From assembly GCA_015056315.1 (NCBI GenBank), contig SVGN01000002.1:106292-170291 (forward strand): 64,000 nucleotides of DNA, in the 5' to 3' direction. The stretch comes from Clostridiales bacterium (lineage in GTDB: Bacteria > Bacillota > Clostridia > Christensenellales > Aristaeellaceae). Below the pieces are notes generated by a model that was not told the origin of the DNA, searched no databases, and worked only from the letters and a program-made list of their open reading frames with translations. This document shows positions 7,381 through 53,791 of the stretch, in pieces (within the stretch, counting starts at the first letter, position 1; each line of letters starts with the position of its first letter). A program made the position numbers and the translations under genes.

Positions 7381-7420
7381 CACATTATAACACATTATAA
7401 TACATCATAACACATCATAA
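7381..7420. repeat. Four tandem 10-base AT-rich repeats
   Basis: CACATTATAA CACATTATAA TACATCATAA CACATCATAA. They lie about 140 bases upstream of the SHOCT gene start and at the 3' end of the nuclease pseudogene. On the minus strand a TTGGTATAAT sequence precedes them. The 10-base period is close to one helical turn, so they could be regulator binding sites. Confidence 0.7.
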
Positions 7421-7935: not shown

Positions 7936-7980
7936 GTTTACTCTCGCTTTCTCCTTATTTCAGCAACTGTTTTCTTGCAT

Positions 7981-9108: not shown

Positions 9109-9305
9109 TTGAACAAAGTGCACCCCGCTTCTTTGAACTCTTCGATTTTGATTTCAAGATCAGATACTTCGCAGCATAGTGTATCCGCAAGGCATTCGAT
9201 GCATTGAAACTCTATTGCTTTTGCATCCAGCAGTTTTTTGTGGAGCGCGATCCAATCCTTCTCCAGTGGCTTGCCACAGATGACGCATTTACTTGCCGCC
9301 TTCAC
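9105..9305 (-). CDS. Small protein with two CxxC pairs (zinc-ribbon-like)
   Basis: 66 aa. 'CVICGK' near the N-terminus and 'CIECL' in the middle can form a four-cysteine metal site; the C-terminal third has further cysteines ('LCCEV', 'GCTLF'). The start overlaps the brxL stop by 17 bases and its stop overlaps the desulfurase start, so the three genes are translationally coupled. I do not recognise the family. A metal-binding or sulfur-relay partner for the desulfurase is possible but inferred only from position. Confidence 0.75.
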   Translation of the reverse strand: MKAASKCVICGKPLEKDWIALHKKLLDAKAIEFQCIECLADTLCCEVSDLEIKIEEFKEAGCTLFK

Positions 9306-10794
9306 GATACTGCTCCTTTATAGTGATATCAGGAATGGTCATCCCTCTGAATTCACCAGGGTCCATAATGCCAAGCTGTGTTTTAATCACTCGCCGCATT
9401 TCCTTGGCGGGTTCCAGACAATAGGTTTCAAATTCATCGATATTCACGTTGCTGACATCAGTGGCGTCAGGGAAGAGTAATTTCAGATACCCTGTGCAGA
9501 TACGTTTGATTGCCTCTGTATCTCTTGTTGCAGAATTCTTAGGAAGCTGTAAAAGTTGATCCACGACCGCCCTGTATGCAAGCTCTCCACGCAGCATGTG
9601 AATAATCTCGCCGAAGTATTCTGTGTTCAGCGCCCAGCCGTTTGCCTTCAAGCTTTCTTTCATCTTGGGAATATCCCATCCTTTTATGAACCCATGGAAG
9701 CGATCAAGCAATGCTGACTCATGGAAAATATCAGGCAAGTCCATAAACATGTCCTGCGTAACGTTCATCAGGTCAGAATCGATATTGCCAAGCAGCATCA
9801 GCCCTGCGTCACCTATACCACGATAATCTCCAACCCTGTATTCGCCGCTTTCTAGATAACCCTTTAGTGCGCCCTGCATTTCCATCGCATCAGTGAACTT
9901 GATGCTTTGGATTTCGTCAAGCGCAACATAATCATAGCGAGAAACAAGTCCCTGTGTTCTCTTGCTGATATCAAAGAACATTTTAGCTCTGGAGATACTG
10001 CCTCCACTAACAAGCCAGCCATATTTGCTGATTTGTGCGTATACATAGGATTTACCTGTTTCCTTTGGCGCAAGTTCGATTAGATTGACGCGCTTTTCAA
10101 CAAATGGAAGCAGGCGGCTGAGCATCGTCATTTTTTGTTTGGTGCTAACATAACCAGCGGGATTATAGTCAATAGCACTCAGCAGAACATTGATCCATTC
10201 ATCAATGGTGAAGTATTTCCTTGCGCTGATATAGTAGTCCAGATCAATAGTATAGGGACAGAACGGTGAGAAGTCGGTCAGCTTAAAGATATAGTCCTTT
10301 CCGTTGTCATCCAATTCGCAGACAAGTTCAACAATTCCCCAAACTTCTGTAGGAGAAAGCAGATAATCTTTATTGGCTTCGATAACATCCCAATCGACAA
10401 CAGCTTCGCCCTTCTTTTTCGGTACTTCAAAATCTGGTAAAGAGAATAAAGCCCTGCGTGTTTTCATATCAAAATCAATCTTAATCTTCGCCAGAAAACG
10501 CGCAGACTCATTATGCCTGAGAAGGTCAAACAGGTATTCGTTCCACTGCTCTTTGTTAGGTATGACTCTTTTCACGTAGTCTGAAACCTGCTGCTTGTCA
10601 ATCTGTCCTTTTTCGTCAGAAAAGCGCATGACAAGCCAGTCGCGCATGAACGCAGGGAGGCTGAGCGCAGAGAAAAATTTGGAGTTGGCTGAAGACTTAT
10701 AGACCAGCATGTCAGAATAGTATTTCTTCAGCTTCGCCTCATAACTTTGTTCGGTCCGATCCATTCCAAGAGTTGTATACTCATGCTTTTCCAT
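9289..10794 (-). CDS. brxL: BREX protein BrxL, short form without a visible Lon protease domain
   Basis: 501 aa. The AAA-like core has a Walker A 'APKETGKS' (residues ~242-249), 'YGWLVSGGSISRAKMF', Walker B 'YDYVALDEIQ' and 'MQGALKGYLESGEY' with 'LLGNI', as in the short BrxL group seen in several BREX types. The first Walker A glycine is alanine and the usual fourth residue glycine is glutamate. BrxL forms DNA-binding ring assemblies needed for phage defence. The start follows GGAG right after the pglZ stop, 12 bases away. Confidence 0.88.
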   Translation of the reverse strand: MEKHEYTTLGMDRTEQSYEAKLKKYYSDMLVYKSSANSKFFSALSLPAFMRDWLVMRFSDEKGQIDKQQVSDYVKRVIPNKEQWNEYLFDLLRHNESARFLAKIKIDFDMKTRRALFSLPDFEVPKKKGEAVVDWDVIEANKDYLLSPTEVWGIVELVCELDDNGKDYIFKLTDFSPFCPYTIDLDYYISARKYFTIDEWINVLLSAIDYNPAGYVSTKQKMTMLSRLLPFVEKRVNLIELAPKETGKSYVYAQISKYGWLVSGGSISRAKMFFDISKRTQGLVSRYDYVALDEIQSIKFTDAMEMQGALKGYLESGEYRVGDYRGIGDAGLMLLGNIDSDLMNVTQDMFMDLPDIFHESALLDRFHGFIKGWDIPKMKESLKANGWALNTEYFGEIIHMLRGELAYRAVVDQLLQLPKNSATRDTEAIKRICTGYLKLLFPDATDVSNVNIDEFETYCLEPAKEMRRVIKTQLGIMDPGEFRGMTIPDITIKEQYREGGK

Positions 10795-10806
10795 TTGCCA
10801 TTCTCC

Positions 10807-13128
10807 TTAAATATCGAAGTCCTTATTCTTCTTAATGCCCTGAACGATCTTTACCGTCAGCTTTCCAAGAATCACACTGTCAATCACTTGGGCAGTAATA
10901 GAATCTTCTTTTCCATCCACCTGATACTCAAAGGTGTATTCCTTGTCTTTCAGTACGCAGGGGATCTTCTTGCCCTTAATCTGGACAGAGGCATTGGGAC
11001 GCGGCTTACCGCTCACTTTGAAGCGGACTGTAATCAATCCAGTGCCTACCTGTGGTTTGACTTCTTCAGTCAGAAGGTCAATCGTGACCTTCTCTGTTTT
11101 TACAGTGTTTTGAGCGTTTTCAATGACGGCAACAGGTACAAGCCATTCCTCCAGCGAAGCGCCGCCATGGATTTCATCGATAGGTGCGCCAGTTTGTGCG
11201 AAGCGAGAATAATCTGCAAAGATCAGCTTGCCTTCATAATTGATAGCCGTTTCGTATTCAGCACCATCAGGCTTTTGATCGCAGAATCGCCCATATTTGT
11301 AAACAGTTGTGTCTTCAGGTTTAGGCAGCATGTTATCGTATTTTGTATTCCTGATTCGTACAGCCAAGCGGCTTGTTCCATGGTCTGCGGCAATGATGAT
11401 TCTGGAAATTGAACCACCGATGGCACTCAGCGCCCTATCCTTAACGGTTTTCAGGATTTCAAGCTCCTTGATGATGTTTTCGGGATAAACACAATTGGCA
11501 TGTTTATGTTCATCCAACTCTCTCATCGGGGGTTCGACCGTCTGCCTGTTATTCATATAATCTTTGTTGATTTCAGTGACAGATGGAAGGTTGCAGAAAC
11601 CTGCTTTGATGGTAAAACGATACTTTGCTTGATCGATATCAGAGAAAATATAGGCAAGATAATCTGCGTACTCAATGCCCATCCCATCGACAAACAAAAT
11701 CACGGTGTGGTCATCGTACATTTCTGTTACAAGCTGATTCCTTGGCGTAAGCATAAAGACGCTTTCGCCTTTCTGCTGTGCGATTTCTCGAACTTTATTT
11801 ACAAACGTACCTGTTATGCTGTCTGTAGCCTTAAGCCATTTATACTCTTCAAAATAGTCGAAGTGAAACTGTGTCAGATTGGCGCTATTGATAGATACGT
11901 CATTATCCAGATAGTAAGCCAGTTCAGGGTATACTGTCTTTAGAGCAACGATAAATGGTATTCTATCATCAAAAGGAACCCCTTTGATAATATCGAATAC
12001 CTTTTTGCGTTCAATATCTGTCAGGTTAGTCAAACAGGCAATAGCATTGATAGGCTCAATAGCCTGAATCATTTTCCAGAATGCCACAGGGGGTGTGAGC
12101 TTCATGCTTCTCAAAGCTGTTTTCCGTTCTTTATACTTCTGAACGTAATCTGTTGTTCCAACGTATTTGGCGATACCTGTATAGATTTCTGTGACAAAAT
12201 CATCTTCAGATTTGCAGGATGCTGCGCATTCATACAGATAGCCTTTTTTGTTTCGCGCCTTCGTCCACAACCAAAGAATCCATTTTTTGAATGGGGTCAG
12301 AATGCTCCACTGTTCAAACAACTCAAGAGAGTAGCGATTCGTTGTCATGCACAGGCTGCATGCTTCATCAAAGCTTCCTGCTTCAGAAGCTTTTTCAGCA
12401 AGTGAATACCAGTGTTCTTGAGTCCCCATGTCTTCTTGCAAGACTGCTGGAAAGTCATGGATCTGGTCTTTGCACAGATCAAAGGGCGTGACGATCACTT
12501 TGACGTTATCAAAGAAATGGTTCCGTTCAAAGTGAATGGCATTCTGCGTATGTAGCACCAATGGCTTATCAGGATTCTGCTCCCAGTATTGTAGGTAGCG
12601 TTTGAAGCCGATAATTTCATTTCCGCTCACATGCACATTCAAACTGTTCTGGATGATGGTAAGCTGATAATCCTGCTCTTCCCCTGTCTGCAAATAGATA
12701 AAGCTATTTTTCTTACGCGGGTCTGTATTGGGAATGGTTTGCAGCACGCTGCTGATTCTATACATGGGAAAATAGATGTGCATTCTGTGCGCATCATTAT
12801 TCTGGTATTCCATGGATAGTAGATTTGATATAACAGATACGGCGGTTTCAGGATGCACGCGAAGATATTCAGACAATGGAAATACACACAATGTCTGATT
12901 AGCTTTTTTCAGTGTGGAACTAAGCCTCTTGAGATTCGGTGTTGTATCGTCTGTCTCGCAGAACTCGGACAGCAAAAGGCTCTTGTCACTTAAGGATACA
13001 AGGAACTTTTTAACCTCCACCCACATTTGCAGAGAATCCACATTGATAAAGCGAATGGGGTTCAGGTCTGCGCGGTCTCGATCTTCCTTAAGGTTTTTCT
13101 TTAGCTGCTCTACATCCTTGAAAACCAT
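10807..13128 (-). CDS. pglZ: BREX alkaline-phosphatase-superfamily protein PglZ
   Basis: 773 aa. The N-terminal ~450 residues are an all-purpose PglZ platform; the phosphatase-like core starts with the metal/nucleophile strand 'TVILFVDGMGIEYADYL' (D481) and continues to 'IIAADHGTSRL' (~577-588) and 'HGGASLEEWLVPVAV' (~660). A beta-rich C-terminal tail with 'VRFKVSGKPRPNASV' follows. PglZ is the one protein common to all BREX types. ATG 13128 has SD AGGAGG that overlaps the brxC stop. Confidence 0.93.
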   Translation of the reverse strand: MVFKDVEQLKKNLKEDRDRADLNPIRFINVDSLQMWVEVKKFLVSLSDKSLLLSEFCETDDTTPNLKRLSSTLKKANQTLCVFPLSEYLRVHPETAVSVISNLLSMEYQNNDAHRMHIYFPMYRISSVLQTIPNTDPRKKNSFIYLQTGEEQDYQLTIIQNSLNVHVSGNEIIGFKRYLQYWEQNPDKPLVLHTQNAIHFERNHFFDNVKVIVTPFDLCKDQIHDFPAVLQEDMGTQEHWYSLAEKASEAGSFDEACSLCMTTNRYSLELFEQWSILTPFKKWILWLWTKARNKKGYLYECAASCKSEDDFVTEIYTGIAKYVGTTDYVQKYKERKTALRSMKLTPPVAFWKMIQAIEPINAIACLTNLTDIERKKVFDIIKGVPFDDRIPFIVALKTVYPELAYYLDNDVSINSANLTQFHFDYFEEYKWLKATDSITGTFVNKVREIAQQKGESVFMLTPRNQLVTEMYDDHTVILFVDGMGIEYADYLAYIFSDIDQAKYRFTIKAGFCNLPSVTEINKDYMNNRQTVEPPMRELDEHKHANCVYPENIIKELEILKTVKDRALSAIGGSISRIIIAADHGTSRLAVRIRNTKYDNMLPKPEDTTVYKYGRFCDQKPDGAEYETAINYEGKLIFADYSRFAQTGAPIDEIHGGASLEEWLVPVAVIENAQNTVKTEKVTIDLLTEEVKPQVGTGLITVRFKVSGKPRPNASVQIKGKKIPCVLKDKEYTFEYQVDGKEDSITAQVIDSVILGKLTVKIVQGIKKNKDFDI

Positions 13129-13142
13129 GAAGAATCCTCCTG

Positions 13143-16100
13143 TCAGCCCTTGAGAATTCGGATACCAAACAGCGGATCGTTTTCAATCAGTTCCTTCAGT
13201 TTGGCTTGTGCTTCTTCGGCGCTCATGCTGTTGATTTTCTTTTTCGCGTCAGCACGGTATTTCATAGCGTAACGTTCCTGCGCGAAAGTGATGATTGCCT
13301 GTCTGCACTGCTGCCTGCGTGCATACCAGTCATAAACCTTGATGCCAGCGACTGCGCGAACCCTGTCACGTAGGTCATCAACAGAGTCAATCACGTATGC
13401 GTAATCGCCGCAGAAGACATCAATGAAGGCTTTCTCACATGCCTTTGTATCGTTGAGGATTTTCAGTTTGTCGCTCTGAATGAATTCGATGGCGTCATCA
13501 ATGCTCTGCTCGTTGGGAAGGTATGAAGTACCATTCAGCGCATCGAAGACCCTTTGTGCGCGAATGCTGTCATCCGTAAACATGCAAAGGATCGGTATGC
13601 CATGCACAGTAGACCAGGCATTCGGAGTCTTGGAATCTGTCGCCTTTTCCCAAGCTTCGTGCATCTTGCGGGTTTTCTTGTTTTTGCGATACTTTTCAAG
13701 TTCGCGCTGCATGAGAATCAGGAATTCATCTGTGGTTTTAAACAACGTTTCGGAAGGCGTGTTGTTAAACAGATGCTCCATTTCATCATCCAGGATAGGT
13801 CCTGAGATGGCTTGCCGCAGCGCAGCAGAGAAGACTTCATACTGACTGTTGAAGAAAGCCAGGAATTCATCAGCCATATTCGCTATGAGCGAAGAAGCCT
13901 CCGCCTTGTTGATTGTGCTATTGTTCTTGATGCTCAAGAGCAGCGACATGATGCTCTTCAACTCAGGTCTTTGTTCCAGAATCCAGCTATTCGGAATCTT
14001 GATGCTGTTCAACTTTTCGACTAACGCCTTTCGCGCATCCTCGTATGTGCGCTGCTTGGTGGAAAGCAGACGATTGATATCAAAGATCAACTTCAAATCC
14101 GTGTACAGATTGTCGATCTGATGATTGGTATCTCCAAGCTGCCACAGGTAAGACGAGTCAGCCGAAAGCTTTTTATTCAGCATTTCCAGGTATTCTTTCG
14201 GCTCTATCTTGAGGTTGCTGGCGATCTGCGTCAGTTCGGGCTTGTACTGTGCAATGTAGTATTCCATGCCTGTACGCATGTTTTCAATCGTCAGGCATTC
14301 AGCAAAAGCGCCATCAATCCCTCTATACTGCATGTAAATGTCATAGATATCCTTGACAACGTTGACTCTTTCCCTGCCGATTTTGGATTCTGGTTTTACG
14401 AACTCACAGAGCAAATCTGCAAGCTGAATCATCGGCTCCCTGTATTCGTGCTCGTATAGTTCTTCTTCAATGTAGCTCTTGATAGACCACAATGGATAAT
14501 TATTGTTGGTCAGATAGATATTGATGTTCTTGGCAATGTCATCAATCGACAGCCTCTTATCCTTGGCGATTTTGAAGATTTCTCCCGTGATCTGGCAGAA
14601 TGCCGCCTGTTCAGGGGTCTGCTTCACAATAAACTGACCATTCGCCTTGGGAAGTCCCTTGATTACACCATAGATTAGTTCACTCAGATCAGTGTAATTC
14701 AAGCTGACTGTGTTGTTGTTGACGTCACGCTTGTAATAGGTGCTGTCAGCAAATTCCTGGAGCAGGAAGCCCATGAGGAATACAGAGCCAGTGTTTGCCA
14801 TCAAGCCAAACGGCGCTTTCTGAAGCACCTTCCAAACATCTGTGATGCTGACCGCAGTGGTATCATTAAATGCCTTGTCAATGACAGCGTTAATGGCAAG
14901 CTTCATCTGTGAAATTACGCAGTTAGGCTTGTTTTCATAATACTTGGGATCGCCCCAGGTTCCTTCCTGCTCAAAGCGGCTTGAGATATTGCGCAGATAG
15001 GCATAGTTGGCAGGAACCGTAATCTTGCCCATTGCCATTTGCGCAACGGTTTCCTTAAAGCCAGACTCGGCGAACAGCTTATCATTCTGGTTGATCGCCT
15101 CAAGTCCATAGGGATAGATACCAGCGTTGATTTCTTTCAGTTCTTTTCTGAGATTGCCTCCGCCTGTTCTCTGCGTTGATTTATCCTCGGCGGTATAAAT
15201 AGTCAGGGAAGTGGTGATCAGCTTACGCAGCCACTCGTTCAGGATGTCTGCAGAAATCTTCTTGGCAAGGTCGAACTGCGGCTTCTGGTTTGGCAGGCTG
15301 GAATAATACTTTTCCTTCGCTTTGCTGGAGATGAACTTATCAAAGAGCACATCTGTAAAAGGCGAAGCGGAGAAATCCACGATCACGCATTTATTGCCAA
15401 CAATGGAATAGATGGTTTTGACTGTGTCTTTGATCTTCTGCTGCTGCGTTTCATTCTGCGCATACAGGTAGAAGACGGGAATATGGTTGGGCGTCTGGTC
15501 CGCGTTTTGTGCTTCGTTCTTCGCGTTGACAGGAGAAACAGGATAAATCTTCATGCGCATTTTCAAGAAATCAGTAGGCAGGAACTGCTCTGTTACCTTG
15601 TATGCACCTTCAGAAATCATCTTTTCAAAGGTGATAGTCTTCTTGGTATCTTCCAGGCATTGCCGCATGCGCTCTTCATCAATAGCGGCAGAGGTCATGA
15701 CATACAGGGTTTCTCTGTTGGCTTCCACCTTGCCCATGATACCCTTGCTGTCAAAGTAATTCAGCGCATCCTCCACGCTGGATTCGATGGGCGTGCCAGC
15801 AAAGCAAGCCTTGATGTTTACCAGTGTAGGACGCATGAGGGAAGTAGCGCCGCTGCGGCTGTCGGCGCTGTTCTTTGCCTGTAGTGCCGCCAGCAGCAGG
15901 GTCACTTTCAACACCCTGCGCTGATTGTCGTTCTGACACATGCTGGCAAAATTGTTGTAATGGCTGATGGTGGTCGTGAAGGCGCTGTCCAGGTCAACGT
16001 TATTGGCATTGAAGAAATAGTCCCACAGGTAATCAGCCGTCAGGTAATTCCACTTGCCGTATTCAAAGGATACGTGCTGGATGAACCATTTAAAATTGGG

Positions 16101-17327
16101 GTGCTTATCATCAGAAACATCTTCACTCAGGAATTTGAAGATGGTTCTCTCGTTGCTGCTGATATCCTTGGCAATGATTCGCAGCAGATAAGCAGCGTAG
16201 GGATGCATAGGCAAGAGCTTGCGGAAATCGTCATCAGCGATGGTAATATCCTTGGCGCGAATGACGCTGACTGCACCCTTGCTTACACCATCCCAAAGTT
16301 CCTCACACCTGTGGTCCCATTCGCTCTTCAGGTCAGGATCATGGTGCAGGGCATAGCCAAGCAGCTTGAAGGCAGTACGCTCCTCCAAACCGATTTGGCT
16401 CATCTTAAAGCGTGCCTCCAGCACTCTTCTCGAATCAGGGTCTTTAATGACCTGCGTCAAACTGGAATGGGTGATCAGGAAGAAGTAGAAACTGATTCTG
16501 GAATCAGCCATAGCGATTTCCTGAAGACCAGTGATGTTGTTCTGATTGTTCTTGAAATACTCAGTGAATTCATCCCAGATGAAGAGCATGGCATAAAGCT
16601 GATTGCCTTTACGCACATCCTCCAGCCAGTTGATCACTTCTTCAGGAGACATGGACCAGTTATAGCCTTCTTTATCGGCAACGTCGATGATGGTATCCAG
16701 CAAGTCCAGCTTGTCATCCAAATCCAGTTCTTCCAAATCACGAATCACGCTCTGCGCAGTGGCGTATTCGGTAAACTTAGCACGATATTTCTGGAATGCG
16801 CCAGCAAAGTTGAAAGCGGAATTGGGGTCCTTCAACGTGGTCAGCACCTTATCCAGCATGCTCGCGCTGCCAGTGTAAGTAAGACCAGCAGCCTGCAAGC
16901 TATCCTTTACGGATTCCACGATGGCGCTGAACAGTTTATTCTGAGAATTCAAGCCAGCAGACGCACTGCGCTGAATCACAAGGATTTGACCCTTTGCGCG
17001 AATGCCTTTAACACGCGCAAACAAATCCATCATCTTGTTTTCAACAAAGTAAGGCTCAACATTGGCAAGGTCATCCTCAAGAATGTGTTTGATGACGAAT
17101 GATGCATACGTTTTACCAGTACCATAAGCGCCGTTCATCCACAGCGAATGGTCTTTGGACTCACTGCTCTTTTCCAGTGTGTCTACTGTTTCCTTCAAAA
17201 TCTGCTTGAAGCTTTCATGCGGATAGAAGGATTGCCACTTGTTGGGATAGATGCGGTCACTGTTTTTGCTGAAAACAGGGATGAAGTTCGGATCGACTTT
17301 GATATAGTCACAATACAGTCTGCTCAT
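13143..17327 (-). CDS. brxC: BREX P-loop ATPase BrxC
   Basis: 1394 aa, the largest gene of the island. Walker A 'GAYGTGKT' at residues ~66-73 and Walker B 'AMLFIWDEF' at ~246-254 are intact, followed by 'FFLITHSSL' as sensor-like strand. The rest is long helical sequence, as in BrxC/PglY proteins. BrxC is essential in BREX and is thought to be the motor or assembly ATPase. It starts 13 bases after brxP, with SD GGGAGGAG. Confidence 0.93.
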   Translation of the reverse strand: MSRLYCDYIKVDPNFIPVFSKNSDRIYPNKWQSFYPHESFKQILKETVDTLEKSSESKDHSLWMNGAYGTGKTYASFVIKHILEDDLANVEPYFVENKMMDLFARVKGIRAKGQILVIQRSASAGLNSQNKLFSAIVESVKDSLQAAGLTYTGSASMLDKVLTTLKDPNSAFNFAGAFQKYRAKFTEYATAQSVIRDLEELDLDDKLDLLDTIIDVADKEGYNWSMSPEEVINWLEDVRKGNQLYAMLFIWDEFTEYFKNNQNNITGLQEIAMADSRISFYFFLITHSSLTQVIKDPDSRRVLEARFKMSQIGLEERTAFKLLGYALHHDPDLKSEWDHRCEELWDGVSKGAVSVIRAKDITIADDDFRKLLPMHPYAAYLLRIIAKDISSNERTIFKFLSEDVSDDKHPNFKWFIQHVSFEYGKWNYLTADYLWDYFFNANNVDLDSAFTTTISHYNNFASMCQNDNQRRVLKVTLLLAALQAKNSADSRSGATSLMRPTLVNIKACFAGTPIESSVEDALNYFDSKGIMGKVEANRETLYVMTSAAIDEERMRQCLEDTKKTITFEKMISEGAYKVTEQFLPTDFLKMRMKIYPVSPVNAKNEAQNADQTPNHIPVFYLYAQNETQQQKIKDTVKTIYSIVGNKCVIVDFSASPFTDVLFDKFISSKAKEKYYSSLPNQKPQFDLAKKISADILNEWLRKLITTSLTIYTAEDKSTQRTGGGNLRKELKEINAGIYPYGLEAINQNDKLFAESGFKETVAQMAMGKITVPANYAYLRNISSRFEQEGTWGDPKYYENKPNCVISQMKLAINAVIDKAFNDTTAVSITDVWKVLQKAPFGLMANTGSVFLMGFLLQEFADSTYYKRDVNNNTVSLNYTDLSELIYGVIKGLPKANGQFIVKQTPEQAAFCQITGEIFKIAKDKRLSIDDIAKNINIYLTNNNYPLWSIKSYIEEELYEHEYREPMIQLADLLCEFVKPESKIGRERVNVVKDIYDIYMQYRGIDGAFAECLTIENMRTGMEYYIAQYKPELTQIASNLKIEPKEYLEMLNKKLSADSSYLWQLGDTNHQIDNLYTDLKLIFDINRLLSTKQRTYEDARKALVEKLNSIKIPNSWILEQRPELKSIMSLLLSIKNNSTINKAEASSLIANMADEFLAFFNSQYEVFSAALRQAISGPILDDEMEHLFNNTPSETLFKTTDEFLILMQRELEKYRKNKKTRKMHEAWEKATDSKTPNAWSTVHGIPILCMFTDDSIRAQRVFDALNGTSYLPNEQSIDDAIEFIQSDKLKILNDTKACEKAFIDVFCGDYAYVIDSVDDLRDRVRAVAGIKVYDWYARRQQCRQAIITFAQERYAMKYRADAKKKINSMSAEEAQAKLKELIENDPLFGIRILKG

Positions 17328-17340
17328 GGTTGCTCCTCCC

Positions 17341-19689
17341 TCAGATCAGCTTCAGTACGTCAATTGCCTTCATACCCTTTTTGCCAGCAGGCAAATCAAT
17401 GTTTTCCATGATACCCTTGTTAAAATCCACCTGGATGTATTCGCTGTAGTCGTTCGCAAGTCCTTGCAGAATCGGCTTTAATGTGTCAGCTTCAACGCCG
17501 AAGATCAGGCGCGGACTCATAGCTTCTCGCTCCTCGCTGTCGTCCAGCAGATCACTGAGCGTGAAGCTGTACAGACCCTCCATGTGTTCAGCGAAGAGGT
17601 AGAGCGTGTAGAGGATAACGAGGGGATCAGCTTCATACCATCTTCCACGTGATATACTGGTTATTGTTTTTCCTTTTGTTTCACAATCGCCCTGCAGTAA
17701 TAACCAGCCAATGGGAGACAATCTCAATGTCTCCTTTAGCGAACTGAGTGCATTTTTCTTGACAGTGGGAGAGTATTCATCTCCAAGCAGTATCGGCAAA
17801 TCCTCTGCTGAGTATGTGCTGTCAGGCTCAATCTTCTTAACATACCAAGTAACAATTGGAGATTCGTAGCAAAGGTTGGCAAATAACACACCCCAGGTAA
17901 CAGGAGAATCGCTCCCCAACTCAAGCAGTTTTTCTCCTAATGGTGTAATTGCATTGTTGTCAGTGATTCCTGCTTCTTTAAGCCAGGTTTTAAAACCGAT
18001 AATCATGTACTTGCCCATTCGGTCATTTGCCCAGAAATCGTCAAGCAATTCAAAGTATAGTTCAAGCCATTCTTGTCTGAACCCAAAATTCTGATATCTA
18101 CTAATGTTTTTTGCGCTCATGTTGCTTCCGCCTCCTGTTATTCCAAGTGATCTTGCAGCAATACAACCCTTTGGAGAATCTAAACACGCTTCACAGTGCC
18201 TGCAGTTCGTGAAGACGATATCGTCTTTCGTAATGGTTAAGGCATTGAAAGAACACTCTGCTGCACATTCTTTGCAATTGACACAGTACGCTGCTTTACT
18301 AAGAGCGTTTTTAAACAAATACATAAACCGCACTGATGATGGCGATCTTATCAGCGCAGGCATGGTCAATACTGTGGCTTTTCCTTCAGTGTGCACAGTA
18401 AACTCAACGTTGATGTCTTTATATCTTATCGAATACTTATCATCAGATACCTGAACGAGCGGTCCAATGGCATGCATCCATTTATCCCACTTATAATTAC
18501 TTTCAACGATGACAAGCTTTACAACCTCGCTCGTCTTGATTTCGGTAATCTTGTTATTACCGATGATAAGCTCTTTCCCACCTATGCGTGATTTCCAACC
18601 ACCAGTTTGTAGGTACTTCTTTTTTTCCTCCTCATTGGGAAAATGCTTTGTAATGCTATTGCTGACGATGCTCAATAGCGGCTCAACTTCTGATGGCACA
18701 ATGTGATTTAGCAAGCATTCATACCATTCGGATGCCATGGGGCATAACTTACAGCCAACGCGGTAAGAACCATATCTATACAGATCGTTTAGCAGCAAAT
18801 CATTTTGGAGGATATACAAGAACAGTTCACAAGTACCCCATTCCAGGATAGGGCTACAATTGTACTGAACAGCATGCTTGTTACCGTCAGAGACCATGGA
18901 ATAAGTTGCTCTTGCATCGCTTTCTTCTGCACGAACTCCATCAAACACCATAACCTTAAACGGTTTGTTGCTATTCGGATATTTTGCTTTGTAGATTTCC
19001 TTCAGTTTTGCAATAGAGGGAGCTGTCTTATGTACGCTGCAACACCAACGCAGTTTTCGCGCTGGAAATCCTATCTTGTTCCACGATTCCACAGCATCAA
19101 AATCTGCTTTGGCTGTATACCATTCAAGAGAAGACCAACGTTTCTTTGCTTTCTGAACAGCTTCATAGGTGGTGGATACTTCCATAGTTGTATCACCAAA
19201 TATAACCACAAAGCTATCATGTGGAAGCGCACGCTGAACGATATCTAACATTACGATTGAGTCTTTTCCACCGCTATAAGCGACATAGAACATGCTTACC
19301 TTTTTGCTGTACTCTAAATATGTATTATATACAGTTTTCAAAGTCCGTTGAATTAAACCATTCATGATGCTTTCATTCTTCTTTAGCATCAATGGTACAT
19401 CAACAGGTTCGAGAACCAAGTTGGGTTTAACATTGCGCAGTTCAGGTTTTTCAAATAAGCCGCCACCGACTGCTTCTCCTACAAGTTCTCCTTTATAGAA
19501 ATATCTGCGTGTTTCAGCCCATAACAGAGGCAATTGACTATCTGGGAATTGCCAGTTGTACTTCTTGTCAAAACCAAGAAAGCGAAGCTCTTCAAAGTAA
19601 ACTGGTCGAACTTCCTTGGCAACGCCCAAGATTTTTGATGGCAACAATAAATAGCCGCCAGTCTCAGAATCCCACTCGTAATTGTACAT
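17341..19689 (-). CDS. brxP: BREX type 4 PAPS-reductase-like protein BrxP (PAPS reductase, ferredoxin, DUF4007)
   Basis: 782 aa with three parts. Residues ~105-330: ATP-pyrophosphatase/PAPS reductase domain with the loop 'SGGKDS' (139-144) and 'VGCKLCP' (C313, C316). Residues ~465-512: a ferredoxin-like insert with CX2CX2CX3C and CX2CX2CX6C, able to hold two [4Fe-4S] clusters. Residues ~528-780: a domain opening 'RYQNFGFRQEW', which I read as DUF4007. brxP marks type 4 BREX, and the same domain class (DndC, SspD) activates DNA for sulfur insertion in phosphorothioation systems. Whether BrxP thiolates DNA here is inference. Confidence 0.92.
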   Translation of the reverse strand: MYNYEWDSETGGYLLLPSKILGVAKEVRPVYFEELRFLGFDKKYNWQFPDSQLPLLWAETRRYFYKGELVGEAVGGGLFEKPELRNVKPNLVLEPVDVPLMLKKNESIMNGLIQRTLKTVYNTYLEYSKKVSMFYVAYSGGKDSIVMLDIVQRALPHDSFVVIFGDTTMEVSTTYEAVQKAKKRWSSLEWYTAKADFDAVESWNKIGFPARKLRWCCSVHKTAPSIAKLKEIYKAKYPNSNKPFKVMVFDGVRAEESDARATYSMVSDGNKHAVQYNCSPILEWGTCELFLYILQNDLLLNDLYRYGSYRVGCKLCPMASEWYECLLNHIVPSEVEPLLSIVSNSITKHFPNEEEKKKYLQTGGWKSRIGGKELIIGNNKITEIKTSEVVKLVIVESNYKWDKWMHAIGPLVQVSDDKYSIRYKDINVEFTVHTEGKATVLTMPALIRSPSSVRFMYLFKNALSKAAYCVNCKECAAECSFNALTITKDDIVFTNCRHCEACLDSPKGCIAARSLGITGGGSNMSAKNISRYQNFGFRQEWLELYFELLDDFWANDRMGKYMIIGFKTWLKEAGITDNNAITPLGEKLLELGSDSPVTWGVLFANLCYESPIVTWYVKKIEPDSTYSAEDLPILLGDEYSPTVKKNALSSLKETLRLSPIGWLLLQGDCETKGKTITSISRGRWYEADPLVILYTLYLFAEHMEGLYSFTLSDLLDDSEEREAMSPRLIFGVEADTLKPILQGLANDYSEYIQVDFNKGIMENIDLPAGKKGMKAIDVLKLI

Positions 19690-19690
19690 T

Positions 19691-20401
19691 TCAATTGCCT
19701 ACCTTTATTGCTGTTTGCAGTTTGTCCGTTTCAAAGTATCGCGGATTTGTATGCGCGAACTTATGACAAGTTGGACATATTAGAATCAAGTCGGACGGTG
19801 ATAAATCGTCTTTTGGTGTGTTTTGCGACAAAGGCAAATTGATGTGCAATTCTATCAATTCACTCGCATGCAGTCCATAGACAGCTCTTAAATCCTTTCC
19901 GCAGATTCGACACCTCGTCTGTTGCTGTATCTTGGCTTCTTTCAGCACTGCATTTATCGTTTTATCGGTACTTTCAAGATGGCAGTGATAAGAAGGAAGC
20001 AGAGCTCCAGCAATAAAACCATTGAATTCTGTTCTTAGGGGAAAAACCGTTCTTGCAAGTCTTTTGATAGCAAGAGAGTATGCGTGCAATTCTGCTTTTT
20101 TTTCGCCATAGTATTCCAGCACTTTTCTCTGAGCAATAGAGCCATGCCCGAATTTGCTGCTTGTATTTGGATCAGCCCATGCCACATTTGCCAAACACAT
20201 TTTCATACCATCAATACTTCGGAATGAAGAGTCAGCTTTTAGCTCCTGATAGAAGGGCAAAGTACGCATTGCTTTGCTCAGGTCAGCAACCATTTCTTCT
20301 TTTGCCGCCTTGCTCTCAACATCCTGCAAGCAATAATACGTGTCCACCAAGAGCAGAACTTCATCCATGGTCAGGGGAGGCATGCGTTTCTTTGTTGTCA
20401 T
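19691..20401 (-). CDS. McrA-like HNH endonuclease of the BREX unit
   Basis: 236 aa. The N-terminal half ('TMDEVLLLVDTYY', 'FRSIDGMKMCLANVAWADP') matches the helper domain found ahead of many HNH restriction enzymes. The C-terminal HNH part has C164xxC167, 'IELHINLPLS', then C209xxCH and H217. Where related proteins have two adjacent histidines, this one has H-I, so a catalytic residue may be missing or displaced. It overlaps the upstream gene by ATGA and ends just before brxP. It could be the effector that cuts DNA according to modification state; that is inferred. Confidence 0.8.
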   Translation of the reverse strand: MTTKKRMPPLTMDEVLLLVDTYYCLQDVESKAAKEEMVADLSKAMRTLPFYQELKADSSFRSIDGMKMCLANVAWADPNTSSKFGHGSIAQRKVLEYYGEKKAELHAYSLAIKRLARTVFPLRTEFNGFIAGALLPSYHCHLESTDKTINAVLKEAKIQQQTRCRICGKDLRAVYGLHASELIELHINLPLSQNTPKDDLSPSDLILICPTCHKFAHTNPRYFETDKLQTAIKVGN

Positions 20402-23400
20402 TGTTCTGCCTCCTCTCGCCTGACCAGTCTGCCATCATCACCCATGTAGTAGTATTGTGCGCTTTCAAGGAAGTTGGGCAGCTTTACATCCACAAATCCA
20501 GCCTCGATCAGCCATTCGCGCATGTCAGCTTTTCTTGTAAAGGTGCCTTTTTCGTATTCCTCGCCGATGATCTTTAATAGCATTGTCTGGAAATCATAGT
20601 TTGCATATTTTTTGCTAACATACACAACCAGCGATCTATGTGAGCGGCTGAATGGATAAGGCACATAATCCAGCCGATTGCTGCTCAACACAATGCTTTC
20701 CAGCAGATAGGGCGTCCATGCTATATCAATGGATGGATACCAAATGAAGTCCTGTACCTTGCAGGAAGGCAGGTAGTCGTTGGCTTCTATTGCATCGCTC
20801 AGAATGTTCAGTGCTTCCTCCACCACGTCATCGTCAATGCCTGCGAGTGAACGCTTCATCAGCGTGTTTTCATCTGAACGAACATAATCAGGCGCAATCA
20901 GTCCCATAAGGTGAGGCAGCGAAACATAGTGAATACCGCGCTCATCCAGCAAATCCATCAATTCATCGATGGCGATCTCAGCATAAGGTTCCAGAACGCT
21001 CAGGATAACGCCGCGGTTGGTCATCTCAACATCGTCAGAATTGGCGATGTAGGGTCTGTTGAACCTGAAATTATACCTGAACATGTGGCTGAGAACTGCA
21101 AACAGCACATCGCGGTTGTGGATTTCGTTTCGATCCATGAATTCAGGAAACTGAACAGAGCAATCGTCAAATACTTTGCGTATATTGACGGGCAAATCGC
21201 GCGTCACCTCAGTCAGGTAAGCTATCAGCGGCGCATAATCTGTCTCCTGAATGTGGAACTGAGAGGCGTGAATATAATACCCTCCGTCAATATTGAAGAC
21301 GTTGGGGCAACGCGCAACAACCTGCCCCAGAGCAAATTCGTTCAGGGCAGGGAATTCAGCATAAATCTCAGTTTTATGGACCATACCACGATCACGTACG
21401 AATGCGTCTAATTCATCTGTGGGAGAAACGTTGGCATCTTTCGTGATATAGTCTCGGTACAGATAGTAATCAACACGTTTATTGACGTTGTTTCCAAACT
21501 GCTTCATCACGCCTTGCAGCAAGTAGTGGTTAGATATCTGTGTTCCTGCCAGCTTATCTTTGAAAGCCTCAAACAATTCAATATACGTAATCGCATTCTT
21601 GGGGCTATCCGCTATGTATTGGTCCACTTCATCCAGGATGCTTTCATCGATTGACACCATGGAAGGATGGATGTACTTGCCTCTGTCGCACAGTACGCCT
21701 ACTGCGTTGATTTTTGCGTCCAGAGCGCGCTGTGTCATGCGGCAGCTACCCTCGCCGAAGACTTCACGAGCATATTCCTGAAAACGCTTAGCGTCTGTTG
21801 CATCGCTGACCTTGAAACCGTTGACAAAGCGGTTCTTCAAAAGCCAATCGCAAATGAAGACTACAGTAGGCTTGTGCTCGCTGTATAGTGTTCCAAAGAC
21901 TCTGTAACGCTGCTTAATATCGGCGCGAATTTTCTCTTCCCAAACGCCTTCTTCCTCCACTGCATGCCGAATAACCTCCTCCAGCTCATCTTTGAAGATG
22001 TAAGAAGGAAGAGCATCAACGATTTTCGCTGCTACATCACCATCTTCATGCTTGAAAACAATGGCTTTATACTGCTTTTCATAGCTGTATGCTTTGCGGT
22101 CGAAAGCGCCGTCTTCAATACACGCCCACAGAAGATCAAGTTGGTCGCTGTTCTCTATGCATGTAGCAACTTCATTCTTGTGGATCATCAAATCACCATC
22201 GAGCATAGCATGGATATATCCAATAACATCTCTGCCAGCATGGCGCAGACTTGTAGAAAACCTTGAAATAGCTTTTGCTTCAATTTGGCGGACGCGTTCT
22301 CTGGTGATATCCAGCACATCTCCAACTTCTGCCAGTGTACGTCCTTCCTGCCTCAGTCTTAATACAACTGGAACGCGATCTGTTGTCATCGTATATTCAT
22401 ATGCTTTTTCTAATTGCTTTGAAATGCCGCAGCCAATATCATCAGTAAAGATGCGTAAGCTGTTAATTAAAGCTATCTGCTCATCTGGCTTGTCTTCAAG
22501 GTACTTTTCTATAGTCTGGGTAGCGTCAATGAAACAATCATTTTCAGTAAATACTGTGTTCAGATCAATCGGTGTTTTCTTCTTTGATGCGGCGACAAAA
22601 GGCAGCACATGAAGAGTCATACTAATCCCATGATCAGCTACACGACTGACAATTTGAACGATCTGTCTATGCAATTCTTGTTGCTTAACGTAATCATCAA
22701 ATACAGAACATAGACTACGCATTTTGTCAGGCTCTTCCAACGCCATCAGGCACAGTTCCTCGCCCAGCACCTGATACGCTTCCTCCAGCAGCGCTGCATA
22801 ATTCTTTTCAGCATCAGTCAGTTCTGAAGCATCGTATTCTATTCCAAGCGCAATAGATTCTGCAATCCTTATCAGCTTTTCATTGGCTTTGGCAGCAGGG
22901 ATAGTTGCCTTCGCCTTGTCGGCTTCTGTTACTGTGTTGATTGCTTGAGGGGCGGCTACAAATTTTTTGCACTTGTTTACAATTTCAAGCAGAGAAGTTT
23001 TCCCCATATTTGGGTATTCACTGATTTCTACTATTGTCGCTGAAAACAAATCGTGCAGCGTGTTTCGATGATTTCCGTTGAGTCGATTATAGGGTCTGGT
23101 AGACAATTTAAGCTCGCTAATGCTCCTATCAGCATAAGAAGCATTATGAGGAATGCCAAGAGCTTCATAAATTGGCGCCTCTACATTGATGCCTCTAAGC
23201 TCTTCCAGATAGTTAAACCACGCCTTTCCTGAAGAGAATATTTTTTGTGGAGCTACTATTGATGCGGATGTGGGTTGATCATCAGCCTCATTTATAGTTT
23301 CGTTGCTCTCGTTGGTCGATTCTTCTGTGAGGGAAGGCTCAGCCGCATCGAATTCTTGTTCTTCAGGAATGGCTTCAACAGGCTCTTCTTCAGGTTCGGC

Positions 23401-23721
23401 TTCTTCAGATGTATCTTCAGCATTCTGAACATCTGCAATGGGCTCAACAGCTTCGGTTTCTTCAATGGCGGCAGGTTCATCAACAGACAATTCAGACTGA
23501 GACTCTTGCTGCTGTATTTCTGTGTCAGGATCGTAGCTGTCAAGCGCATGCCGAATGTTTGCAACATAATCACGAGTAGCGCCATGCTGTGTTCTGAATG
23601 CAATAAAGTCGGATGTGGTGAGTTCAGATATAAACTGCTTGTCAAGAGACACGCAAAAAACAACAAAATCAGCGTATTCAGTTTTCAATGCATCTCTGAT
23701 TCTGGCATTTTTCCGCGTCAT
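20398..23721 (-). CDS. Large protein with alpha-CTD-like and sigma-region-4-like DNA-binding domains
   Basis: 1107 aa. Order: ~60 N-terminal residues; a very acidic linker (62-150); a helix-hairpin-helix domain at ~200-254 ('ISELKLSTRPYNRL', 'PNMGKTSLLEIV') that resembles the RNA polymerase alpha C-terminal domain; helical sequence; a sigma region 4-like HTH at ~454-490 ('RTLAEVGDVLDITRERVRQIEAKA'); then ~600 residues with repeated winged-helix-like segments I cannot name. It has no visible catalytic motif. As second intact gene of the unit it may regulate the operon or bind DNA as part of the defence machine. ATGA overlap with the HNH gene. Confidence 0.85.
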   Translation of the reverse strand: MTRKNARIRDALKTEYADFVVFCVSLDKQFISELTTSDFIAFRTQHGATRDYVANIRHALDSYDPDTEIQQQESQSELSVDEPAAIEETEAVEPIADVQNAEDTSEEAEPEEEPVEAIPEEQEFDAAEPSLTEESTNESNETINEADDQPTSASIVAPQKIFSSGKAWFNYLEELRGINVEAPIYEALGIPHNASYADRSISELKLSTRPYNRLNGNHRNTLHDLFSATIVEISEYPNMGKTSLLEIVNKCKKFVAAPQAINTVTEADKAKATIPAAKANEKLIRIAESIALGIEYDASELTDAEKNYAALLEEAYQVLGEELCLMALEEPDKMRSLCSVFDDYVKQQELHRQIVQIVSRVADHGISMTLHVLPFVAASKKKTPIDLNTVFTENDCFIDATQTIEKYLEDKPDEQIALINSLRIFTDDIGCGISKQLEKAYEYTMTTDRVPVVLRLRQEGRTLAEVGDVLDITRERVRQIEAKAISRFSTSLRHAGRDVIGYIHAMLDGDLMIHKNEVATCIENSDQLDLLWACIEDGAFDRKAYSYEKQYKAIVFKHEDGDVAAKIVDALPSYIFKDELEEVIRHAVEEEGVWEEKIRADIKQRYRVFGTLYSEHKPTVVFICDWLLKNRFVNGFKVSDATDAKRFQEYAREVFGEGSCRMTQRALDAKINAVGVLCDRGKYIHPSMVSIDESILDEVDQYIADSPKNAITYIELFEAFKDKLAGTQISNHYLLQGVMKQFGNNVNKRVDYYLYRDYITKDANVSPTDELDAFVRDRGMVHKTEIYAEFPALNEFALGQVVARCPNVFNIDGGYYIHASQFHIQETDYAPLIAYLTEVTRDLPVNIRKVFDDCSVQFPEFMDRNEIHNRDVLFAVLSHMFRYNFRFNRPYIANSDDVEMTNRGVILSVLEPYAEIAIDELMDLLDERGIHYVSLPHLMGLIAPDYVRSDENTLMKRSLAGIDDDVVEEALNILSDAIEANDYLPSCKVQDFIWYPSIDIAWTPYLLESIVLSSNRLDYVPYPFSRSHRSLVVYVSKKYANYDFQTMLLKIIGEEYEKGTFTRKADMREWLIEAGFVDVKLPNFLESAQYYYMGDDGRLVRREEAEQ

Positions 23722-23730
23722 GTTGGTCCC

Positions 23731-23960
23731 TCACAATTCAATGCTGTTAAGCAGGTTTTTGAGTGATTTCAATTCTTCTGCTGAAAGTGGACACCTTTCC
23801 CAGATTTCGTACGGTCAGCGTTCCATGCTCTGATGTCATACTTGGCAATGTTATCGTCCCACTGTACGATGTTGAGTTCCTTCTTCCAGGTTCCGCTTTC
23901 TGAAATCGTGCCGATAGTCTGTACGATTTCAAATGCGATCTTGGACTGGGTTTCGCTCAT
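23731..23960 (-). pseudogene. PC4/YdbC-like ssDNA-binding protein, frameshifted near the C-terminus
   Basis: The open frame gives 63 aa with 'WKKELNIVQWDDNIAKYDIRAW' typical of the YdbC/PC4 family, but ends 'KGVHFQQKN'. Shifting by -1 at 'GGTGTCCACTTT' restores the family's ending ('LSAEELKSLKNLLNSIEL' then stop), 9 bases before the next start codon. So one base appears to be missing near 23783. PC4-like proteins bind single-stranded DNA or RNA and assist transcription. The start overlaps the XRE gene stop as ATGA. Confidence 0.8.
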
Positions 23961-24199
23961 TTGCCGACAGTCCTTTCTATCTGCTTTTCGGGTTCAGGAT
24001 CATCAACATGCTCTATGATGTCGCCATAATCCACTTTCAATGTAGAGCAGATGCGGTCCAGGATTGGCAGAGCAACACATTCATCCTTGCTCAGCTTAGT
24101 CAGGGTATTGGATGAAATGTCTGCCGCACGCCGCAAATCTGCCTTGCTCATCTTCCTGTCAACGAGCAATTTCCAGAGTTTGTTGTATCGGACAGCCAT
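23957..24199 (-). CDS. XRE-family transcriptional regulator (first gene of the BREX unit)
   Basis: 80 aa with an HTH of the Cro/CI type: 'YNKLWKLLVDRKMSKADLRR', 'ISSNTLTKLSKDE', then 'RICSTLKVDYGDIIEHV'. I set the start at 24199, which follows GAGGAGGG; the ORF track extends too far upstream. The pairing of this small XRE with a YdbC-like gene is common in clostridia. Being promoter-proximal, it probably controls the operon. Confidence 0.88.
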   Translation of the reverse strand: MAVRYNKLWKLLVDRKMSKADLRRAADISSNTLTKLSKDECVALPILDRICSTLKVDYGDIIEHVDDPEPEKQIERTVGK

Positions 24200-39053: not shown

Positions 39054-39168
39054 GGCTGCACCTCTTTGCTTGTATTGCTGTTTTGCCCGGTGGGCATCTC
39101 TGCATCCATTGTACCAAAGGTGGCGGGGAAGCGTCAAACGGGAAAGGAGCCTTCCCCTGTCGCATGGC

Positions 39169-39430
39169 AAAAAAGGGGAAGGTGCAGGAAACTCAGTTTC
39201 CTGCCGGGTGTGGAGGCGGAGGGAAGTGTGTGCCCAGTGGGCACTTGCGCGAAGCGCAAAACGACCCGCAGTCGTCAACCGAAACGAGTACAGACCACGG
39301 CAGTGGGCTGTACGACGATTGAGGTTGCGGAACAGAGCCCACAAACCTTGCGCCGCAGCGCTTTCTTGTGAGCACAGCGAGCACCGAAGGTGCAAGATGT
39401 GCGGCTCGTGTTGGTATGTATGGGTTTTTC
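39169..39430. repeat. Dispersed non-coding repeat, copy 1 (long form)
   Basis: Starts AAAAAGGGGAAGGTGCAGG and ends GGTATGTATGGGTTTT; the same sequence is found inverted at 53612-53753. This copy has an extra ~120 bases in the middle. The ORFs listed here are only reading frames of the repeat. Region 39054-39557 holds no convincing gene. Confidence 0.85.
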
Positions 39431-39440
39431 GACAGTCTGG

Positions 39441-42035: not shown

Positions 42036-42290
42036 AGGCGAGGTCTTTCAACCTCGCCCCAGACTGTCGAAAAAGCCCCAGAGGTATCGGAGGGCCGCAG
42101 CCCTCCGATTGCCAATCCGAAACCAGCGGCGTGTACGGTGGTTTCGGAACCCTTGCGTAGCAAGGGGTTCCTATCGCCGTTTGCCGCCCGGGGAGCCGTA
42201 GGCTCCTAGGCAAACGGTGCAAAAGTCGTCAAAAAAGCCGCCGCAGGCGTGTTTTTTGACGAGCTGAGGCGAGGTCTTTCAACCTCGCCC
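42036..42290. repeat. Cluster of hairpins bounded by 24-base direct repeats
   Basis: AGGCGAGGTCTTTCAACCTCGCCC occurs at 42036-42059 and 42267-42290, and is itself a hairpin. Between them lie a row of further stems, including ATCGGAGGGC / GCCCTCCGAT, GAACCCCTTG / CAAGGGGTTC, GGAGCC / GGCTCC and CGTCAAAAAA / TTTTTTGACG. The piece CCAGACTGTCGAAAAA also occurs inverted at 39429-39440. No ORF of note. Confidence 0.75.
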
Positions 42291-42320: not shown

Positions 42321-43604
42321 TTAGCCCTCTTCCACGCGCAGCAGGCTCTCCACAGAGGCCACATCGGGCGTGATCTCCCGAACGGCGGCCTGCATCTCCT
42401 TTTCGTAAGCCGCATGGGTGATGAACACCAGCGTTACCCGGCCATCCTTCACCTCACCCTTCTGCTGCATGGCAGCAATGCTCACGCCGTGGTCGGCAAA
42501 GGTCTTGGCTACGCTGCTGAGCACACCGGGCCGATCCTGGGCGCGCATGCGCACATAGAAGGAGCAGCGCCAGTCGGTGTTGTTCTCCAGCGAAACAGTG
42601 GGGTACAGCTCGTTTTCGAAGGTGGGGTAGCAATGCTTGGGAGCGGAGGCAGCGCGGATCAGGTCGCTGACGATGGCGCTGGCGGTGGGCAGATCGCCCG
42701 CGCCGCGACCCATGAACATCATCTCGCCGCAGGCGTGGCCGTTCAGGTACACAGCGTTGAAAGCGCCGTTGATGTTGGCCATGGGGTGATCCTCGCGGAT
42801 GAAGGTGGGGTGCACACGGGTCTCCACCTTGAGGCCCTCCCGCTTGGCGATGGCCAGCAGCTTGAGGGTATAGCCCAGCTCCTGACCGCAGCGGATATCC
42901 TCCGCCTGTACGCCGGTGATGCCCTCCACATATACGCTCTCGAAGGGCACACGGCCATGGAAGGCCAGGCTGGCCAGAATGCTCAGCTTGTAGGCCGCAT
43001 CCAGACCCTCCACGTCGGAGGCGGGGTCGGGCTCGGCAAGGCCCAGGCGCTGGGCATCCTTGAGCACGGCGGCATACTCCTCGCCCTCTTTGCTCATGCG
43101 GGTGAGGATGTAGTTGGTGGTACCGTTGACGATGCCGTACAGCCGGTCGATCCGGTTGGCCTGCAAGCTGTCTTCAATGGTGTGGATGATGGGGATGGCG
43201 CCGCACACAGCAGCCTCGTAGTAGAGGCCAGCGCCGCTTTCCTTGGCGGCCTTCTGCAGCTCGTGCCAGTGCAGGGCAAAGGCCACCTTGTTGGCGGTGA
43301 CCACGGTCTTGCCATGCCGGAGGGCAGCCAGCAGGTAGCCGAAGGCGGGCTGTTCGCCGCCCAGGAACTCCAGCACGATGGAGATCTCTTCATCCTCCAG
43401 GATATCGTTCACGTTGCTGGTGAGCAGCTCCCGGGGGATCTCCACATCCCGCTGTTTGTTTACATCGCGTACCAGCATGCGCTTTACCTCAAAGCGCAGC
43501 CCGGTACGGTGGGCGATCTCCTTGGAGAAGCCGTTGAGCAGGCGGTATACGCCGCTGCCCACATTACCGCAGCCAAAAAAACCTACTTTGATCACATCAC
43601 TCAT
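42321..43604 (-). CDS. hom: Homoserine dehydrogenase
   Basis: 427 aa. NAD(P)-binding 'VGFFGCGNVGSGVYRLL', the catalytic domain with 'NGTTNYILTRM' and 'DPASDVEGLDAAYKL', and a C-terminal ACT domain ('RPGVLSSVAKTFADHGVSI') which normally senses threonine. Makes homoserine for threonine and methionine. It starts 12 bases after coaX. SD GGAGGC. Confidence 0.97.
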   Translation of the reverse strand: MSDVIKVGFFGCGNVGSGVYRLLNGFSKEIAHRTGLRFEVKRMLVRDVNKQRDVEIPRELLTSNVNDILEDEEISIVLEFLGGEQPAFGYLLAALRHGKTVVTANKVAFALHWHELQKAAKESGAGLYYEAAVCGAIPIIHTIEDSLQANRIDRLYGIVNGTTNYILTRMSKEGEEYAAVLKDAQRLGLAEPDPASDVEGLDAAYKLSILASLAFHGRVPFESVYVEGITGVQAEDIRCGQELGYTLKLLAIAKREGLKVETRVHPTFIREDHPMANINGAFNAVYLNGHACGEMMFMGRGAGDLPTASAIVSDLIRAASAPKHCYPTFENELYPTVSLENNTDWRCSFYVRMRAQDRPGVLSSVAKTFADHGVSIAAMQQKGEVKDGRVTLVFITHAAYEKEMQAAVREITPDVASVESLLRVEEG

Positions 43605-52574: not shown

Positions 52575-52713
52575 GTGCTGCCGCCCCTCTCCTGCAAAGA
52601 TAACAACAGTATAGCACAAAGCCCCCGGTTCGACAAATACCGCACGCTTGCAAATTCCTCCAAATGGTGTATGATGGGGAGCGTACACCAGAACACTGAG
52701 GGAGGTGGACGGC

Positions 52714-53562
52714 ATGCAGAAGAGAGCCATCGCCGTACACGATATTTCCTGTGTGGGCCGCTGCTCCATCACGGTGGCGCTGCCCATCCTTTCGGCGGCG
52801 GGGGTGGAGACCTCCATTATCCCCACGGCGCTGCTGAGCACCCACACCGGCGAGTTTACCGGCTACACCCATCTGGATCTGAGCGACCAGCTTTCCCCCA
52901 TCGCAGAGCATCTTTCCACCCTGGGCCGCAGCTACGATGCATTTTACAGCGGCTACCTGGCCTCCGGCAGGCAGGTGGATCAGGTGCTGGATATGCTGGA
53001 CCGACTCTGCGACGACAGCACCCATATTTTTGTGGATCCGGCCTTTGGCGACCACGGGCGCATGTATTCCCTGATGGATGAGACCATGCCTGCCCAGATG
53101 CGCAAGCTGTGCAGCCGCGCTCGCACCATCGTGCCCAACCTGACGGAGAGCTGCTTCCTGCTGGGCAAGCCCTACCCCAAGGAGGGCTGCACGCCGGAGT
53201 TTGCTGCCGAACTGTGCCGCGAGCTGCTTATGCTGGGGCCGGAGAACGTGGTCATTACCGATATCGCCTTCAGCCGGGAGCATACGGGGCTGGCCATACA
53301 GAGCAGCCATATGTCCCAGCCGGTGTTCCAGTTCCGCTCCCGTTTCGAGGGCATCTTCCACGGCACGGGCGATGTGTTCGCCTCCTTCCTGCTGGCAGGG
53401 CTGATGCGGGGGCGCACCGTGCAGGATGCGGCAGCGTTGGCTTTGGAACTGACCCACGAATGCATTGCCGCAACGCTGGAAAGCGGCCAGCCGCTGCGCT
53501 TCGGCGTGCAGTTCGAGAGCGTGCTGCCCAAGCTGTGGCAGAGGCTGGAGGAAGCCGGATAA
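52714..53562 (+). CDS. Pyridoxal/pyridoxamine kinase-like (PfkB superfamily)
   Basis: 282 aa. 'AVHDISCVGRCSITVALPILSAAGVE' (part) and 'HTGEFTGY' at the N-terminus, 'VPNLTESCFLLG' in the middle, and the anion-hole 'FHGTGDVFASFLL' fit PdxY/PdxK kinases of the B6 salvage pathway. ATG 52714 follows GGAGG at eight bases. The flanking repeat lies behind it. Confidence 0.9.
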   Translation: MQKRAIAVHDISCVGRCSITVALPILSAAGVETSIIPTALLSTHTGEFTGYTHLDLSDQLSPIAEHLSTLGRSYDAFYSGYLASGRQVDQVLDMLDRLCDDSTHIFVDPAFGDHGRMYSLMDETMPAQMRKLCSRARTIVPNLTESCFLLGKPYPKEGCTPEFAAELCRELLMLGPENVVITDIAFSREHTGLAIQSSHMSQPVFQFRSRFEGIFHGTGDVFASFLLAGLMRGRTVQDAAALALELTHECIAATLESGQPLRFGVQFESVLPKLWQRLEEAG

Positions 53563-53571: not shown

Positions 53572-53791
53572 ACGCTTTGTTGCTTTTTGCAGCAAAGCGT
53601 ACGACTGGCGCAAAAACCCATACATACCAACACGAGCCGCACATCTTGCACCTTCGGTGCTCGCCGTGCTCACAAGAAAGCGCTGCGGCGCAAGGTTTGT
53701 GGGCTCTGCCCACACCCGGCAGGTAACTGAGTTTCCTGCACCTTCCCCTTTTTGACAACCCGACGCTTTGTTGCTTTTTGCAGCAAAGCGT
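53572..53791. repeat. Dispersed repeat copy 2, flanked by a duplicated 29-base hairpin
   Basis: The inner part (53612-53753) is the inverted short form of the repeat at 39169-39430. It is bounded by two identical 29-base sequences, ACGCTTTGTTGCTTTTTGCA..., at 53572-53600 and 53763-53791. Each is a hairpin; the second is followed by TTTTTT and would terminate the upstream kinase gene. The pattern resembles insertion of a small element into a terminator with target duplication. Confidence 0.8.

Follow-up and report, generated by a model that had tools for sequence, protein, structure and literature searches.

The window, by which we mean the whole 64,000-nucleotide stretch of DNA analysed here, carries on its minus strand an open reading frame (42321-43604) that matches the NCBIfam homoserine dehydrogenase and is taken as hom, and 30 nt past its stop lies an array of hairpins, after which comes the gene for an EamA-type transporter. 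The first-pass annotation had pointed here to strong stems within 255 bases, bracketed by identical 24-base palindromes downstream of hom, and these observations held: the same 24-mer occurs on the minus strand at 42036-42059 and at 42267-42290, with starts 231 bp apart, and 207 bases of stacked hairpins stand between. Folding of a 266-nt stretch gave -142.7 kcal/mol on the plus strand and -145.8 kcal/mol on the minus strand (z of about -10), far below shuffles on both, with 0 of 200 shuffles as stable on either strand. The copy at 42036-42059 is the hom terminator hairpin with its T-run (GGGCGAGGTTGAAAGACCTCGCCT and then GTTTTG, minus strand), and the copy at 42267-42290 is the hom-proximal hairpin, which adjoins the element and not the T-run. 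Palindromes and array are thus both real but do not form one unit, as the flanking palindromes are a duplicated host target, the intrinsic terminator of hom, and are separate from the element inserted between them.

This element, MITE-A, occupies 42060-42266 on the plus strand (207 bp; CM R1, 213.6 bits) and runs from CAGACTGTCGAAAAA to TTTTTTGACGAGCTG, with imperfect terminal inverted repeats (TIRs) of about 15 bp, the left one (CAGACTGTCGAAAAA) at 42060-42074 on the plus strand and the right one (CAGCTCGTCAAAAAA on the minus strand) at 42252-42266. Its interior comprises a covarying junction with order-wide conservation (42079-42174, plus strand), in which closing helix 1 surrounds three hairpins (helices 2-4), followed by a fourth hairpin with an inner stem (42176-42221, plus strand; helix 5, CCGTTTGCC/GGCAAACGG) and a right-end hairpin (42225-42263). 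A longer form of 303 bp holds about 96 extra bp at the junction between 42135 and 42136. The suggestion of a transcription barrier survives in part, in that the palindrome on either side is the terminator of hom, and the right-end hairpin, with its A-run, GC stem and T-run, looks from its letters like an intrinsic terminator in both directions. Elsewhere in the window, positions 4000-24000 have a low GC content (0.44-0.50 versus about 0.6) and resemble a defence island, either BREX-type (perhaps of type 4) or Dnd-like. The run of minus-strand genes there includes those for BrxL (N-terminal and ATPase domains), a protein with a PAPS-reductase domain, an aminotransferase of class V and a product of 1394 aa that has no Pfam match.

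Sequence searches revealed 65 matching pieces of MITE-A in the window's own assembly. Copies read with their flanks start with CAGACTGTC(G/A)AAA and end with GACGAGCTG, again as imperfect TIRs, and beyond these ends stands a palindrome that differs from copy to copy and yet is the same on both sides of any one copy. Among 37 two-ended copies drawn from all loci collected, 27 had flanking direct repeats that scored, in an ungapped comparison, above all of 2000 random position pairs. The duplicated targets are mostly 22-44 bp long (one is 15 bp), normally form a complete stem-loop (e.g., AACGGGCATCCGGC.TTTGCCGGATGCCCGTT) and usually adjoin an A- or T-run. The remaining 10 copies lack a clean duplication by this ungapped test; at least one of them is an indel case (L113), and several keep a hairpin on one side. 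Neither orientation of the element relative to the terminator is favoured (8 versus 9), and this gives no sign of retention as a host 3' UTR. At one further locus (L046, genome G016), the two target hairpins are no longer identical, and the changes between them are compensatory (GGCTGAGG..TCAGCC versus GGCTGGAA..CCAGCC), which suggests that selection maintains each copy as a hairpin.

Related genomes provided both empty and independently occupied versions of the hom site. In two congeners (G005, L165; G006, L167), the spacer between hom and the EamA gene holds one terminator hairpin with a T-run and no element, so that the second hairpin in our window arose with the insertion. A third congener (G008, L166) carries a degraded piece of MITE-A in the opposite orientation beside a hom terminator, and this is an independent insertion. 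With lengths of 207 or 303 bp, no coding capacity and many dispersed copies, MITE-A has the hallmarks of a miniature inverted-repeat transposable element (MITE), and of the options that the first-pass annotation had listed, it is the repeat element that is now demonstrated, by dozens of genome matches, TIRs, duplicated targets and empty sites.

The same insertion habit is shared by a second element, MITE-B, which is 162 bp long, has the same kind of ends and has a body unrelated to that of MITE-A, and of which the window holds two copies. One (53601-53762, plus strand) sits in the terminator of a pyridoxamine kinase gene (52705-53562), between 29-bp hairpin repeats at 53572-53600 and 53763-53791, with six T after the far copy; the other (39165-39439, minus strand) is a long form with about 112-118 extra bp and one damaged end. 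Left and right TIRs covary between element types. Terminator hairpins are targeted, the whole hairpin is duplicated, and the ends are common to several elements.

A larger parent element is visible in halves. Its left halves, on contigs C46, C18, C79, C26 and C48, pass from MITE-A position 195 into GCAGTGAAAACC and then stop, and its right ends, on contigs C28, C45, C42, C64, C51 and C2, carry CAGCTCGTCAAAAAATAAGC and then stop, so that parent and MITE-A, compared through these halves at contig ends, have in common the left 195 bp and about 15 bp at the right. Halves could be matched through their flanking hairpins, which are identical for C42 and C46, differ at one position for C64 and C26 and show a few differences for C2 and C48. 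The missing part falls between AAGGCAAAGAGTTCGAGAGTTTT and AATTCAGTACTACTTGAATAAAATC; the coding part of the parent is absent from this metagenome-assembled genome (MAG), in which the parent is broken at contig ends, as expected of a collapsed repeat. Early-ending copies in genomes G009 and G005, examined for a transposase, likewise all stop at contig ends. Many contigs of these MAGs stop inside MITE-A itself (L013/L151, G000:C25:1-126; L011; L018; L067; and others), and MITE-A ranks among the main causes of broken assemblies in this genus, which explains the fragmented MAG assemblies. At five loci (L005, L006, L007, L019 and L028), short-form, long-form and internally deleted MITE-A bodies join near-identical parent sequence at position 195, with one common join base, which is suggestive of exchange between copies and parents by recombination or conversion. 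Because five copies have the same junction, we also considered a secondary IS insertion at position 195, and set this aside since the extra sequence lacks inverted ends of its own and provides, at its right end, the right TIR of the element.

Beyond the genus, DNA matches to the MITE-A body were found in 49 of 300 genomes of the family (15 of 50 genera), and a covariance model trained on 26 diverged copies extended the range to 23 of 142 genera (38 of 396 genomes) in this order of gut bacteria, across several families. Insertion at duplicated hairpins recurs in these other genera and families (L211, L217, L218, L220, L222, L223, L225, L242, L249 and L256). The named contigs with matches are MAGs of uncultured Clostridia or Clostridiales, at least one of them from sheep rectum (RGIG6256); phage and plasmid collections held no match to the element, and IMG/VR held one contig. 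In Rfam 15, nothing came near a gathering score, whether around the site (E-values up to 10) or at related loci, diverged copies included (E-values up to 1).

Homologues and compensatory changes had been proposed as a check on the hairpins, and the comparison revealed pairing that is conserved: a closing helix round three hairpins, a fourth hairpin and the right-end hairpin. A lack of conserved pairing, named in the first-pass annotation among the things that would refute its reading, was looked for and did not materialise. In a MAFFT alignment, which is not fitted to structure, double changes occur in 25 of 57 pairs, compared with 12.7 +- 1.8 in shuffled and 8-12 in slid controls, and 91.0% of cells pair versus 83.7 in shuffles. 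The order-wide alignment, which was fitted to the model and is thereby biased towards the structure, and which a few weak hits on the opposite strand have entered, shows double changes in 55 of 57 pairs and a covariation score of 0.465 versus 0.138. Among 46 close copies, deviation from the consensus is 1.6% at paired and 8.5% at unpaired positions.

The fold is also asymmetric between strands. On the plus strand of the MAFFT alignment, G-U cells outnumber A-C cells 48:13 in helices 1-4 and 17:12 in helix 5, and in the fitted alignment, which favours G-U, the ratio for helices 1-5 is 86:22; such cell counts lack independence, and close copies taken by themselves supply too few cells to tell. 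For the right-end hairpin, the counts are even (16:19 and 14:15), which is suggestive of a DNA-level role for that end. The excess in the core suggests a functional fold of the single plus strand, as RNA or as ssDNA, between which such an excess does not distinguish. Compensatory pairing and the strand-asymmetric core speak for the structured RNA that had been put forward as one option, and they fit RNA and folded ssDNA alike.

We are accordingly confident, if short of certain, that 42060-42266 is a non-autonomous transposable element, a MITE, inserted in the rho-independent terminator of hom with duplication of the complete 24-bp stem-loop. It is improbable that we are instead looking at a static family of extragenic palindromes (REP/BIME-like) that multiplied through recombination, or through a single-strand transposase of the RAYT type, with no DDE-type insertion: the ends are precise and carry inverted repeats, every copy has a different target duplication (22-44 bp), and to our knowledge single-strand transposition does not duplicate targets, even though the element is palindromic, intergenic and repeated and its strand-asymmetric fold would suit ssDNA transposition. 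Group IIC introns use terminator hairpins, and the body covaries as an RNA might, so a retroposed RNA or a group IIC-intron-like element homing to terminators also deserves mention; we give it similarly little credence, as Rfam offers no intron match, the hairpins are duplicated, and the TIRs recur on the unrelated body of MITE-B. Least credible is a host-encoded structured RNA or riboregulator of hom, which the strong fold and covariation would fit but which is contradicted by empty sites and multi-copy dispersal, with the body absent at hom in two relatives, present beside many unrelated genes and indifferent in its orientation to the terminator.

Under the preferred reading of a MITE in the hom terminator, a transposase encoded by the parent would act in trans on the MITEs. 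It may recognise the target palindrome at its base, probably as a cruciform, and cut the two strands on opposite sides of the hairpin base; the whole hairpin would then become the duplication, and duplication length would track hairpin length. Because the far hairpin copy would keep the T-run, termination of the host gene would survive. The folded body may do its work as one strand, either RNA or ssDNA, with a role that could lie in mobilisation or in the insulation or tolerance of transcription. A bolder proposal, which we hold only tentatively and think unlikely, is that this is an order-wide family of terminator-invading elements whose strand-specific RNA or ssDNA body is needed for transposition or target choice; if true, a transposon that targets palindromes would depend on a structured nucleic acid as its partner. 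Terminators are safe for a transposon only where termination survives, and duplication of the whole hairpin would achieve this survival. The copies, moreover, represent many natural cases in which target choice is directed by structure and not by sequence, with the hairpin setting the duplication length, and the conserved fold makes it testable whether some DNA transposons depend on folded RNA or ssDNA.

As for the parent transposase, we lean modestly towards the IS30 type. The parent has a noncoding motif of 24 bp that is found again, at 23 of 24 positions, 3' of the transposase gene of L192, an IS30-family element from the same taxonomic family (transpos_IS30 above cut-off), and, at 19 of 24 positions, in L191. 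Our search of the genus for an IS30 transposase, as marked by HTH_38 and transpos_IS30, found no intact gene, and the TIRs of MITE-A are on no IS30 locus examined in the genus and family, where the ends differ (e.g., TTCCCACTTCAAGTTCCACAGTG). The motif GGCTTGTTTGCTATAC-CTTTTT is common to the 3' regions of IS30-family elements (L192, L191) and to the parent.

Both the insertion habit, from IS1630, and the kind of element, from MITEs, are already known. A search of the open-licence literature for a terminator-targeting MITE in Clostridia found none, although it did find IS1630, and a prior description is possible; a MITE that joins terminator invasion to an order-wide covarying body was likewise absent from the portion of the literature covered, and no family of this sort exists in Rfam 15. 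Closest among known elements is IS1630 of Mycoplasma fermentans, a member of the IS30 family whose targets are inverted repeats, which it duplicates (Calcutt et al. 1999, as cited in PMC3317919). It is autonomous, 1.18-1.38 kb long and bounded by 27-bp TIRs, and duplications of 16-26 bp are reported for strain M64 (PMC3317919). Like MITE-A, for which we found palindromes of variable sequence and length to be targeted and duplicated, it inserts into inverted repeats of any sequence and duplicates the whole repeat, whereas MITE-A is 207 bp long and gene-less, with other TIRs, duplications mostly of 22-44 bp and a covarying body. Bacterial MITEs, as far as the sections consulted of PMC10969869 describe them, are similarly short, gene-less, bounded by TIRs, associated with target duplication, present in many intergenic copies and presumably mobilised in trans; terminator-only targeting, whole-hairpin duplication and an order-wide compensatory fold set MITE-A apart from those reviewed there. 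REP palindromes serve as insertion sites for other IS elements (PMC1525189, in part), again a palindromic extragenic target, but there it is a specific REP sequence family that is chosen, whereas MITE-A takes any terminator stem-loop, of unrelated sequence. Finally, SPRITE, BOX and RUP of Streptococcus pneumoniae, in the same sections of PMC10969869, are small interspersed structured repeats, one of them terminator-like; there, however, it is SPRITE itself that resembles a terminator, whereas MITE-A invades existing terminators and comes to lie between two terminator copies.
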